Below, piece by piece: positions 12,489 to 29,697 of a stretch of DNA of 30,131 bases. Location of the stretch: positions 1 through 30,131 of the IMG/VR virus record IMGVR_UViG_3300036767_000990, one strand, 5' to 3'. This stretch comes from a virus. Every line of letters starts with the position of its first letter. Position 1 is the first letter of the stretch. The notes beneath the pieces are model-generated. The model saw only the letters and a program-made list of their open reading frames with translations, ran no database searches and was not told the origin of the DNA. The position numbers and the translations under genes were made by a program.

Positions 12489-12752
12489 TCAGGTCCGCGC
12501 TTGGAAAAACGCACTTGTGAATGCGGAGCGAATAGCTTCCTGACCACTCCCATCAGCCAGCTCACCGCTTCGAGCTTGCTTCAGACCCGTTTGCAGCCGT
12601 GTTTTCAAATCACTCAACTTTGCCTCTTCGCATTCCAGCAAATGCAGCGCTTTTAGAATTGCTTCTGAGGCATCCTTGTAGCGGCCTGTGGCGACAAGCC
12701 GGTCCACGAGCTCAGTCTGGCTGTCGGTGAGAACGATTGTGCTGTTGGCCAT
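12489..12752 (-). CDS. Orphan ParD-type antitoxin
   Basis: This 87-residue protein has a ribbon-helix-helix N-terminus: NSTIVLTDSQTELVDRLVATGRYKDASEAILKALHLL. The tail (ELADGSGQEAIRSAFTSAF) resembles the toxin-binding part of ParD. A ribosome site GGAGA lies 8 bases before the ATG. ParD is normally followed by parE, but the next base-pairs on this strand run straight into the end of hipA, 31 bases away, and no ParE-like frame is visible on either side. It is the only toxin-antitoxin gene in the window on the phage strand. A small inverted repeat TGCC-ATT-GGCA at 12770-12780 may be its operator. It could be a leftover or an anti-toxin acting against a ParE elsewhere. Confidence 0.82.
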   Translation of the reverse strand: MANSTIVLTDSQTELVDRLVATGRYKDASEAILKALHLLECEEAKLSDLKTRLQTGLKQARSGELADGSGQEAIRSAFTSAFFQART

Positions 12753-26485: not shown

Positions 26486-27202
26486 TCATCGCCACGGCTC
26501 CCGCATCGGCACCCCCTCAACCACAACAACCTCCCGCATCAGTTTACTCCCCCTGAGCGCATCGCTAACCCAGCCTAGCGCCTTAACCCAATCCGAATAC
26601 CCCCGGTGCGCGGTTTCAATCTGTGCCGGGTAGGGATCCCAGATAACGGGACAGATAAGGACATCCACTGTCCGCCACTTGCCGCGTGAAAACACCCGCT
26701 CGGTTCCGACAACTTCGGTCACCGCCCGCACCCCGTGCTGGTTTTGGCGAGTCTCGCGTGGCAGACACCGCGGCACCACCCCAGGCATCCAGTCCGGGGT
26801 CAGCCCCGCGCGTGCCAGTTCTGCGATCCGAATGGCCATGCGCTTGCCGCCCAGCGCGTCAGGCAGCATGACTACGGTGGCCGCAATCACATCGGCATCT
26901 TCGTGCGTGTAGCTGTCCCGCTTGTACCGTCCGCCATCAACCTTTGTGCCTAGCTGCGCCTGCCGGATCAGAACATACTCAAACCCATAGCCCTGTGCCT
27001 CGGCGGCTTCGGTATCCGGTGGTGGCGGCAGCTCCAGCTGCGCCTTCTCGATCCTGAAGGCCCACTCCAGCGCTTGCTGTATGGTCATCTCGCGTTTGTG
27101 GCGCCCCGAGGTAGTTCTGTTCGTGTTTGCACCCCTGCGCAATGAGCGTGACTTCGCGGCTGATGTGCCATTGCTCTGATGCAGTCTACGATCGTGTTTC
27201 AT
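26486..27202 (-). CDS. Conserved phage protein of unknown function, last early gene (lambda Q position)
   Basis: This 238-residue protein starts with a basic, likely disordered segment (about 1-38), then a helix (MTIQQALEWAFRIEKAQLEL) and two conserved-looking parts: YGFEYVLIRQAQLGTKVDGG and KRMAIRIAELARAGLTPDWMPG. It ends in REPWR. Similar proteins occur in phages of Rhodobacterales without a known role. It is translationally coupled to the replication gene (ATGA) and is the last gene before the late control region. A regulator of late transcription is therefore possible by position, but no domain proves it. If the basic segment is not translated, an internal ATG at 27088 is the likely start. 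Confidence 0.75.
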   Translation of the reverse strand: MKHDRRLHQSNGTSAAKSRSLRRGANTNRTTSGRHKREMTIQQALEWAFRIEKAQLELPPPPDTEAAEAQGYGFEYVLIRQAQLGTKVDGGRYKRDSYTHEDADVIAATVVMLPDALGGKRMAIRIAELARAGLTPDWMPGVVPRCLPRETRQNQHGVRAVTEVVGTERVFSRGKWRTVDVLICPVIWDPYPAQIETAHRGYSDWVKALGWVSDALRGSKLMREVVVVEGVPMREPWR

Positions 27203-28248
27203 CGAATGCCCCTTTCGTTCAGTCGTTCTCTGGTGACGAGGCCGGAAGCGATCAGCCGGTCGCGCATGGTGTTGGTGATGGCACTGCTGGGCAGGAAGCT
27301 CTCGCCGTTGACCCAGTTCGCGTAGGTGGCGACCATGGCGTCTTCGCTGACAGGTGTCTCAGAGGGGCCTTTCGCCTTTGATGAGCGATGTGCTGGGGCA
27401 GATGTTTTTTGCGCCCTCTGCGCCCGCTCCATGACGCGATCAAGGGCTTTCGGCCCGTCGGGTGGGGTAGGATGCGCGTCCCGGCTTCGTCTGGCCACAT
27501 CAAGGATTTGGTCCTCGCTTAAGCCCAGTTCGTCACGCCAACGTCGGACATGCTCTCTGGGCGGCCATCCCTGCCACCAGCCGGGAAGATCGGATTTTGG
27601 ATCAATGCCCAGCGCTCTCAGAAGCTCTTCAAAGAAATTTTCAAATTCGTCCTCGCGCTCTCGCGCGCCCTCCTCCTCCTTTACTGGTTCTCTTACAAGG
27701 TTACTGTCCGGATTTGAGACACGGGATCGCCGCCAATCCGGACACAGCTCGGCGTCTAAATCGGACACGGCTCCGTGTGCAGTTTCCGGACACGGGTTTG
27801 AAGCGGATTTCGGACCCAAACCTTTGCTGCTGTTGAGATTTTCGTCGCCATCGCCGTGTCTGAAATCCGGACACGGGTTTGGACCTGTGAGACTGCCCGC
27901 ATCTGGGCATTCAAACGAGGTTTCTTGATCATCCCCGCCAGTTGTTTCTCCACCACCATTTTGCGATTTGAAACCGGTCTCGAAGCCCAGAATGTAGCGT
28001 GTGGGCAGCTGACGTTTCGAGCCGGGTGTCCGTCGCTTTACGCGCCGGATTAGTGACGCCATTTCCAGCGCCTTCAGATGTTCATTCAGTGTGGATCTGC
28101 TGATCTCGCAGTCATGGGCAAGCTGTTCCTGAGACGGAAAACATCCATAATCCGGATTGTACCTGTCACAGAGATGCCAGAGCACAATCTTGGTGGTGGG
28201 CTTTAATCCGCGTTGCTGGATGGCCCAGTTTGTCGCAGCGTGACTCAT
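27199..28248 (-). CDS. Replication initiator-like protein with helix-turn-helix (lambda O-like position)
   Basis: This 349-residue protein has an N-terminal winged helix (about 1-75): ATNWAIQQRGLKPTTKIVLWHL, then FPSQEQLAHDCEISRSTLNEHLKALEMASLI. This is the HTH_36 pattern used by phage and plasmid replication proteins. A low-complexity middle (about 110-190) contains repeated NPCPDF-like words whose DNA forms iteron-like repeats. The C-terminal part (FENFFEELLRALGIDPK...GWPPREHVRRWRDELGLSEDQILDVARRSRD) is helical and may recruit helicase. Such an architecture mirrors lambda O, whose origin lies inside its own gene. Both ends overlap neighbours by 4 bases. Confidence 0.82.
   Translation of the reverse strand: MSHAATNWAIQQRGLKPTTKIVLWHLCDRYNPDYGCFPSQEQLAHDCEISRSTLNEHLKALEMASLIRRVKRRTPGSKRQLPTRYILGFETGFKSQNGGGETTGGDDQETSFECPDAGSLTGPNPCPDFRHGDGDENLNSSKGLGPKSASNPCPETAHGAVSDLDAELCPDWRRSRVSNPDSNLVREPVKEEEGAREREDEFENFFEELLRALGIDPKSDLPGWWQGWPPREHVRRWRDELGLSEDQILDVARRSRDAHPTPPDGPKALDRVMERAQRAQKTSAPAHRSSKAKGPSETPVSEDAMVATYANWVNGESFLPSSAITNTMRDRLIASGLVTRERLNERGIR
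27706..27881. other. Candidate phage replication origin: iteron-like repeats inside the initiator gene
   Basis: The core TCCGGACAC recurs at 27737-27745, 27786-27793 region and 27866-27874, with TCGGACACGG at 27761-27770. The two best copies (27785-27800, 27866-27881) share the 16 bases TCCGGACACGGGTTTG. A looser copy lies at 27706-27725. Short inversions such as CACGG-CT-CCGTG (27765-27776) overlap them. They lie in the middle of the initiator gene, as in lambda. Confidence 0.6.
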
Positions 28249-28730
28249 GTCTCCTCCCCAGCGCTGGGCGCAGTGGAGACACGAACACCCGCGTCCCTAA
28301 CAATGCGTGTGACCATCCCCGCCTCTGTCAAGGCGCCCAGCGCATCCTCGACGGATCGCACCAGTGCCCAGGCAAAGCCCTGAGCCTGCACTGCGTCTCG
28401 GAAGACTTTCTGGGCATCGCTGAGAGAGCCCGTGGTGCTCTTCACTTCCAGAAACAGCACCTTGCCCTGCGACAGCACGATGAGATCGGCAAAGCCGGGG
28501 GTGACGCCCATGCCGACAAGAATAGCCTGACGCTTGGCACCAGCCTGTCCGGCTTGCGTTACTTCGTTGGCGCAGTGGTGGACGATCGATCCGGCGGGCA
28601 AAACAAACCGAAGCGTACTGACAATCGCGCGCTGGATATCCGCCTCGGGTGTTCCTCGTTGTGCTTTAGCAGGGGCCTTGCTGGCCTTGATCCGCCCAAG
28701 GAGCGAGGAATTGCGTTTCAATCTTCTCAT
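28245..28730 (-). CDS. VRR-NUC domain nuclease
   Basis: This 161-residue protein has the VRR-NUC form of the PD-(D/E)XK nuclease fold. TPEADIQRAIVSTLRF supplies the first acid (E29), GVTPGFADLIVL the aspartate (D82), and KVLFLEVKS the E95-x-K97 pair, followed by SLSDAQKVFRDAVQAQGFAWALVRSVEDAL with the usual Gln (Q107). All catalytic residues are present. Such phage enzymes are thought to cut branched or flap DNA during replication and recombination. It is coupled to the initiator gene by a 4-base overlap, which fits a role in DNA replication. Confidence 0.9.
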   Translation of the reverse strand: MRRLKRNSSLLGRIKASKAPAKAQRGTPEADIQRAIVSTLRFVLPAGSIVHHCANEVTQAGQAGAKRQAILVGMGVTPGFADLIVLSQGKVLFLEVKSTTGSLSDAQKVFRDAVQAQGFAWALVRSVEDALGALTEAGMVTRIVRDAGVRVSTAPSAGEET

Positions 28731-29605: not shown

Positions 29606-29697
29606 GTCGGCGTTTCCGACGGGTTTTCTGTTTTGGACACGGTCATTTCTGCATGCCGTGCCCCAAATCTGTTTTGTGTCAGCGTCGGAAGCGTTTC
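29606..29697. promoter_or_regulatory. Operator-like repeats upstream of the right-edge gene
   Basis: CGTCGGAARCG occurs inverted at 29621-29611 and direct at 29683-29693. The first copy is part of GTCGG-CGTTT-CCGAC (29606-29620). Two direct copies of TCTGTTTTG lie at 29627-29635 and 29668-29676, with CACGG/CCGTG (29638-29642, 29656-29660) between. They are likely sites for a repressor controlling the divergent genes. I do not support any gene in 29341-29760. Confidence 0.4.

Follow-up and report, generated by a model that had tools for sequence, protein, structure and literature searches.

An iteron-like repeat array and a probable replication origin inside a prophage initiator gene, on the lambda O plan

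The initiator gene, its neighbours and its repeats

The stretch of DNA analysed, hereafter the window, is 30,131 nucleotides long; it is part of contig C19 in a 3.19-Mb genome, and carries a prophage, with genes for a terminase GpA, a lambda-type portal and a tape measure on the minus strand. On the same strand, at 27199..28248, an open reading frame of 349 aa is found, which qualifies as a replication initiator gene: its product matches the Pfam HTH_36 domain (9.7e-16, aa 14-67) and, over the HTH and the linker, the PHROG families phrog_345 (8.5e-22), phrog_270 (1.3e-21) and phrog_391 (6e-16), annotated as 'replication initiation O-like' or 'replication initiation protein'. Upstream, in the same operon, lies a VRR-NUC nuclease gene (28245..28730, minus strand; Pfam VRR_NUC, 1.5e-5). 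Downstream, a 238-aa gene (26486..27202, minus strand) overlaps the initiator and occupies the slot of lambda P; in Pfam and PHROG searches it matches phrog_9306, and no P-like helicase loader is recognised in the window.

The AlphaFold2 model of the initiator, analysed by DSSP, features a winged-helix DNA-binding domain (aa 1-92; 27973..28248, minus strand), where the recognition helix spans aa 51-63 (28060-28098, minus strand) and includes Arg51 and Glu56; both assignments agree with the covariation described below. The linker (aa 100-186), which is the part encoded by the repeats, is predicted to be disordered (pLDDT < 50). It is followed by a helical C-terminal domain (aa 191-349; 27202..27678, minus strand), modelled with confidence. 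When this domain is folded alone, DnaD (Z 6.4) and primosome DnaB (Z 5.1) score highest among its matches, both within the chance range for helical folds: these scores are too low for a fold assignment, but compatible with a helicase-recruiting role. DnaD and the Gram-positive DnaB primosome proteins, like the window protein, have a winged helix at the N-terminus, while the C-terminal likeness stays within chance scores, and the domain has no Pfam DnaB_2 match. Searched by sequence, solved relatives are limited to weak MarR-type matches (best E 0.015).

Four toxin-like modules, on the plus strand, are interspersed among the minus-strand phage genes (8070-8683, 10921-12457, 13011-13860 and 25153-26382). 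They consist of a small ORF with a PIN-domain gene, a small Xre-like ORF with a HipA-like kinase gene, a small ORF with a GNAT acetyltransferase gene (TacAT-like), and a Fic gene; the larger genes were assigned by Pfam, the small partners by eye. A lone small ORF with the look of a ParD-type antitoxin, again judged by eye and with no obvious partner, lies between the HipA and GNAT modules (12489-12752, minus strand).

The repeats are built on an 11-bp core, CCGTGTCCGGA, read on the strand of the gene. The earlier note had reported four to five copies of a longer word: the repeats are indeed found where it placed them, but the full 16-mer, TCCGGACACGGGTTTG, occurs exactly twice (27785-27800 and 27866-27881), and the remaining copies have only the core in common (27737, one mismatch; 27760, two mismatches; 27854, two mismatches, inverted; 27702-27724). 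Altogether, about eight half-sites of uneven quality lie within 27702-27876, arranged as two palindromes followed by three direct copies at 23 bp, the last of which is palindromic. In the coding sequence, the cores of the palindromes start at 373/385 and 454/466, those of the direct copies at 479, 502 and 525, and the inverted copy at 537.

All elements are given on the minus strand. Palindrome 1, CCGTGTCCGGA-T-TTCAGACACGG (27854..27876), corresponds to homologous 23-bp palindromes in relatives. Palindrome 2, CCGTGTCCGGA-A-ACTGCACACGG (27773..27795), is defined by its core matches and has a degenerate right arm; each of these two palindromes retains one perfect arm. Iteron 1, CCGTGTCCGAT (27760..27770), is read in the second codon phase, as AVSD. 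Iterons 2 and 3 are core matches at the 23-bp spacing: the former, CTGTGTCCGGA (27737..27747), is read in the first codon phase, as LCPD; the latter, which is also palindrome 3, CCGTGTCTCAA-A-TCCGGACAGTA (27702..27724), in the third, as RVSNPDS.

When up to two mismatches are allowed, the core is found 19 times in the whole window, against 12.6 expected, which is unremarkable; six of the 19 matches fall within 140 bp, where about 0.06 would be expected for a word that was, however, picked after being seen. Outside the array, the 3.19-Mb genome contains no exact copy of the 11-mer. The 23-bp triple of the window scores 15/20, a value reached by 54 of 2000 synonymous shuffles: this is weak by itself, and the strong evidence was taken from homologues. 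The array is degenerate, both in the triple and in the lack of one 12-bp unit from the adjoining AT-rich stretch, and this copy may be a weaker or decaying one. DnaA boxes have a single match in the window, at chance level, and none near the array; in the GC-skew profile of the window, where transcription confounds phage skew, no distinct feature marks the array.

Conservation of the array and of the adjoining AT-rich region

Homologues gathered from genomes, viral contigs and phage records provided 208 different coding sequences. A triple was considered sharp when three 10-bp words, spaced by exactly 23 bp, reached a score of 17/20 or more. The spacing that starts with iteron 1 in the window is generally kept: 189 of the 208 homologues contain a sharp triple, while other spacings, from 14 to 39 bp, are found in at most two genes each, and synonymous codon shuffling leaves a sharp triple in 0-5 of the 208. 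The repeats are thus present in nearly all homologues, in favour of the reading given in the earlier note. Since 23 leaves a remainder of 2 when divided by 3, the repeats are read in three frames, and in homologues one DNA word generates unrelated peptides, such as AVSGF, PCPEN and SRVRNPDT. Upstream of the direct repeats, relatives feature palindromes of 23 bp, whose half-sites are 12 bp apart.

Where the residue is unchanged, codon identity amounts to 0.73-0.91 in the array and in the melting region described below, against about 0.39 expected, and 0.35-0.65 over most of the remaining gene, the first 25 codons excepted. In these (aa 1-25; 28174-28248 in the window), which lie outside the array, synonymous identity is 0.61-0.72, against about 0.42 expected. 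Use of three frames, synonymous-site conservation and predicted disorder of the linker support selection of the linker repeats at the DNA level, in line with the suggestion of the earlier note that DNA function drives peptide repeats of low value.

The half-sites are confined to the initiator gene: 647 are present within 126 genes and 19 in 1.3 Mb of flanking sequence, while a reversed control word is found 0 times within the same genes and 33 times in the flanks. A promoter operator was also considered and rejected, as half-sites are not enriched outside the gene and a near-match upstream of the operon, at 29632, is within chance. In a class-wide search of 385 genomes, with a divergent HTH as query, only three matched, including the window's own.

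The C-terminal domains vary among subfamilies (L027, L047, L030 and L048, compared with the window), while HTH, iterons and melting word persist; the differences look as if the helicase-recruiting part were exchanged. Two homologues are broken or truncated, by a run of N (L024) or by an early end (L040), which suggests decaying prophages or assembly faults.

The AT-rich region next to the array, a putative melting region (DUE), begins with AACCTTGTAAGAGAACCAGTAAAGGAGG and is located at 27670..27702 (minus strand); it is defined by its stability and by a unit at fixed offset, and lacks the one 12-bp unit, found in most relatives, mentioned above. The least stable 50 bp of the window gene are 27670-27719. 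Homologues show the same picture: 164 of 173 have their least stable 40 bp directly 3' of iteron 3, starting 60-79 bp from the start of iteron 1. The stretch contains tandem units GTAAnnGAACC, the first of which is placed 28 bp after the start of iteron 3 in 187 of 193 genes; elsewhere in the 170 kb of coding sequence of these 193 genes the unit is absent. Several relatives (L042, L224, L288, L304, L312) keep the word in another reading frame, with other codons, which indicates that it is not a peptide feature.

The word is also able to retrieve initiators by itself. A scan of viral contigs with GTAAnnGAACC, required twice and used alone, returned 22 matches in HTH initiator ORFs; almost every one is closely preceded by a 22- or 23-bp triple, and several have iteron words new to the set. 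A blind scan with the gammaproteobacterial form, GAACCnGTCAnn, found HTH-type initiators in 70 of 76 ORFs. As both scans return initiators, the melting word appears to be common to phage groups with different iterons. The chances are about even that the melting region is a conserved tandem 12-bp word, GAACCnGT(A/C)Ann, common to O-like initiators of alpha- and gammaproteobacterial phages with very different iterons, and read sequence-specifically by one and the same factor, such as a surface of the initiator that binds single strands or the helicase machinery of the host, with the pair of iteron and HTH as the fast-changing, specificity-determining part. A further 64 matches of the viral-contig scan fell in ORFs devoid of the HTH, for the most part short PVNEPVNEP frames, which may correspond to structural-gene repeats on the opposite strand; these were left out of the evidence.

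Covariation of half-sites and recognition helix

The letters of the half-sites follow the residues of the recognition helix, as the earlier note had anticipated in proposing that iterons should change in step with the HTH. In a set of 191 genes, Arg51 goes with G at base 5 of the half-site (169 of 169), and Ile, Val or Asn at this position with C (22 of 22), so that all 191 agree; base 9 is C in the genes with Arg56 (32 of 32) and in no others of the 191. When the residues of the domain are ranked, 51 comes first for base 5, and 56 for bases 8, 9 and 10: both fall within the helix predicted by AlphaFold2 and DSSP (H51-63). Genes outside this set, part of which came from the melting-region scan, where HTH and iterons are unused, obey both rules (25 of 25 for base 5, 25 of 25 for base 9).

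In a tree built without the helix columns, site and helix switches coincide; with the extra genes, all 12 switches inferred on the best tree (4 and 8) are in step, few of them being on strongly supported branches. A nearly minimal pair is provided by L026 and L281, which are 82% identical: their recognition-helix cores, SRSALNEHLLRLE and SLSALNEHLLRLE, differ only by R51L, and, alongside this change, three half-sites are GTGTCC in the former and GACTCC in the latter. The array is thus very probably read by the protein.

The putative origin, alternative readings and known systems

Judged from the sequence, region 27670-27876 is most likely the replication origin of the prophage, contained in its own initiator gene on the lambda O plan. 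The N-terminal winged helix would bind the CCGTGTCCGGA half-sites, dimerised on the palindromes and head-to-tail on the 23-bp iterons; the resulting nucleoprotein complex would open the AT-rich GTAAnnGAACC stretch beside iteron 3, and the helical C-terminal domain would bring the host helicase DnaB to the opened stretch, either directly or via a loader. An origin within the gene is the simplest account of the anatomy, the DNA-level conservation, the covariation and the confinement of the half-sites.

The main rival, which we consider improbable, is that the array, though bound by the protein, serves as an in-gene autoregulatory operator, a silencer or a centromere-like site. MarR-like winged-helix domains are often repressors, and the covariation, which makes reading of the array by the protein very probable, bears on the reading itself and not on its consequences. 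An operator, however, does not require that a stretch of least stability be conserved, with a fixed word kept at fixed distance; half-sites are enriched neither in the flanks nor in promoters, and the PHROG annotation is replication, with relatives placed as lambda O is, next to genes for a helicase or a loader. Still less probable is a role in RNA, with palindromes forming mRNA hairpins, or with the AT-rich stretch acting as a slow patch of rare codons, tuning translation or folding. RNA hairpins are possible, as the codons of PCPESGHG form a perfect 23-nt inverted repeat, and AT-rich codons do occur in a conserved stretch of otherwise GC-rich genes; yet iterons 1 and 2 are direct half-sites and form no hairpins, the bases of the half-sites vary together with recognition-helix residues and not only with their pairing partners, and the melting word does not depend on frame or codons in several relatives. 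Finally, it is hardly credible that selection acts on the peptide (NPCPDF-type linker repeats) and that the DNA similarity simply follows from it. Relatives do contain recurrent peptide repeats, PCPESGHG among them, but this reading was rejected on the three frames, which give three unrelated peptides, and on the synonymous shuffles, which destroy the pattern, while the peptides lie in a linker predicted as disordered and follow the DNA class (PCPES to PTPES).

For the origin reading, the natural term of comparison is lambda O, which, with its iterons, is the model system for an in-gene origin (PMC6022878, PMC7466680). In lambda as in the window family, the DNA-binding domain is N-terminal and the origin, proposed in our case, is in the middle of the gene (PMC6022878, PMC7466680). 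Two traits of the lambda plan are found here: repeated words within the initiator gene, which the earlier note had recognised, placed between the DNA-binding and the C-terminal domain, and an AT-rich stretch, presumed to unwind, immediately adjoining the last iteron. Used as a positive control, lambda O has its least stable 40 bp at 39121, with iteron 4 ending at 39118, the same layout as in the homologues. Lambda features four palindromic iterons, likewise in several codon phases, with distances of 20, 24 and 23 bp between their starts. Differences are also evident. Here the spacing is strictly 23 bp, most sites are single half-sites, and the iteron words are different; lambda lacks the GAACC unit, and the window a recognised P gene. 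Lambda O belongs to the Pfam family Phage_rep_O (PF04492; 5.7e-36), which is not among the matches of the window protein up to E 10: being outside Pfam's lambda O family, the window family is better described as a work-alike, a distant O-like relative, than as a Phage_rep_O member.

Gammaproteobacterial phages, such as Aggregatibacter S1249, Klebsiella RAH1 and Salmonella SI8, contain relatives, 'O-like' initiators which share the HTH_36 domain and the PHROG families. Their position is the lambda O slot: the gene precedes a P-like loader in S1249, lies between cII and P in RAH1 and stands before a primase/helicase gene in SI8; in mid-gene they carry a tandem of GAACCnGTCAnn, a unit one base off (GTCA instead of GTAA). 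Their repeat words are different and their spacing is other or looser (21 bp in S1249): no sharp 23-bp triple was found in gammaproteobacterial phages, and strict 23-bp spacing is therefore claimed only for the alphaproteobacterial family. Agrobacterium phage Rivra has neither the array nor the GAACC unit, and Sinorhizobium phi2LM21 features only a weaker 24-bp repeat, with no GAACC unit. In a 46-kb circular phage-plasmid from Sulfitobacter (L417; NZ_CP136687.1, 4604-6720), a DnaB-like helicase gene directly precedes the HTH_36 gene, which contains three repeats at 22 bp and GAACC units; this phage-plasmid is a natural test replicon.

Among plasmid systems, RepC of the alphaproteobacterial repABC plasmids likewise has its origin in the initiator gene, where silent mutations abolish the function of the melting region (PMC3155836); repC of p42d is reported as devoid of iterons (PMC3155836). 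The window protein does not belong to RepC, as its RP-C match (E 0.085, 13.1 bits) is far below the cut-off of 24.4 and repAB is absent, nor to the Rep_3/RepA family of iteron plasmids, since Rep_3 is not among its Pfam matches up to E 10. HTH_36 proteins are listed as the replication type of pYEE7 and pYEE8, small Paracoccus plasmids from the same bacterial group (PMC6209633); this likeness rests on the protein type.

In the study consulted on Rhodobacter capsulatus phages that contain this gene, it is annotated only as an HTH protein, and the main text mentions no iteron, initiator or origin (PMC8601537). A description of this origin family was not found in the literature searched, absence there being no proof of novelty. 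Since the 1970s, a few enterobacterial phages have been the known examples of the lambda O plan, which would now extend to hundreds of alphaproteobacterial prophages, from Rhodobacter-like hosts, with an initiator family outside Pfam's lambda O domain and with clearer signs of DNA-level selection than one phage alone can give. As the sites and their reader are contained in one gene, natural variants provide a readable recognition code, with near-minimal pairs such as the one described above, which would make initiator-origin specificity predictable and testable. The shared melting word, in turn, may serve as a sequence tag for origins in unannotated phages.
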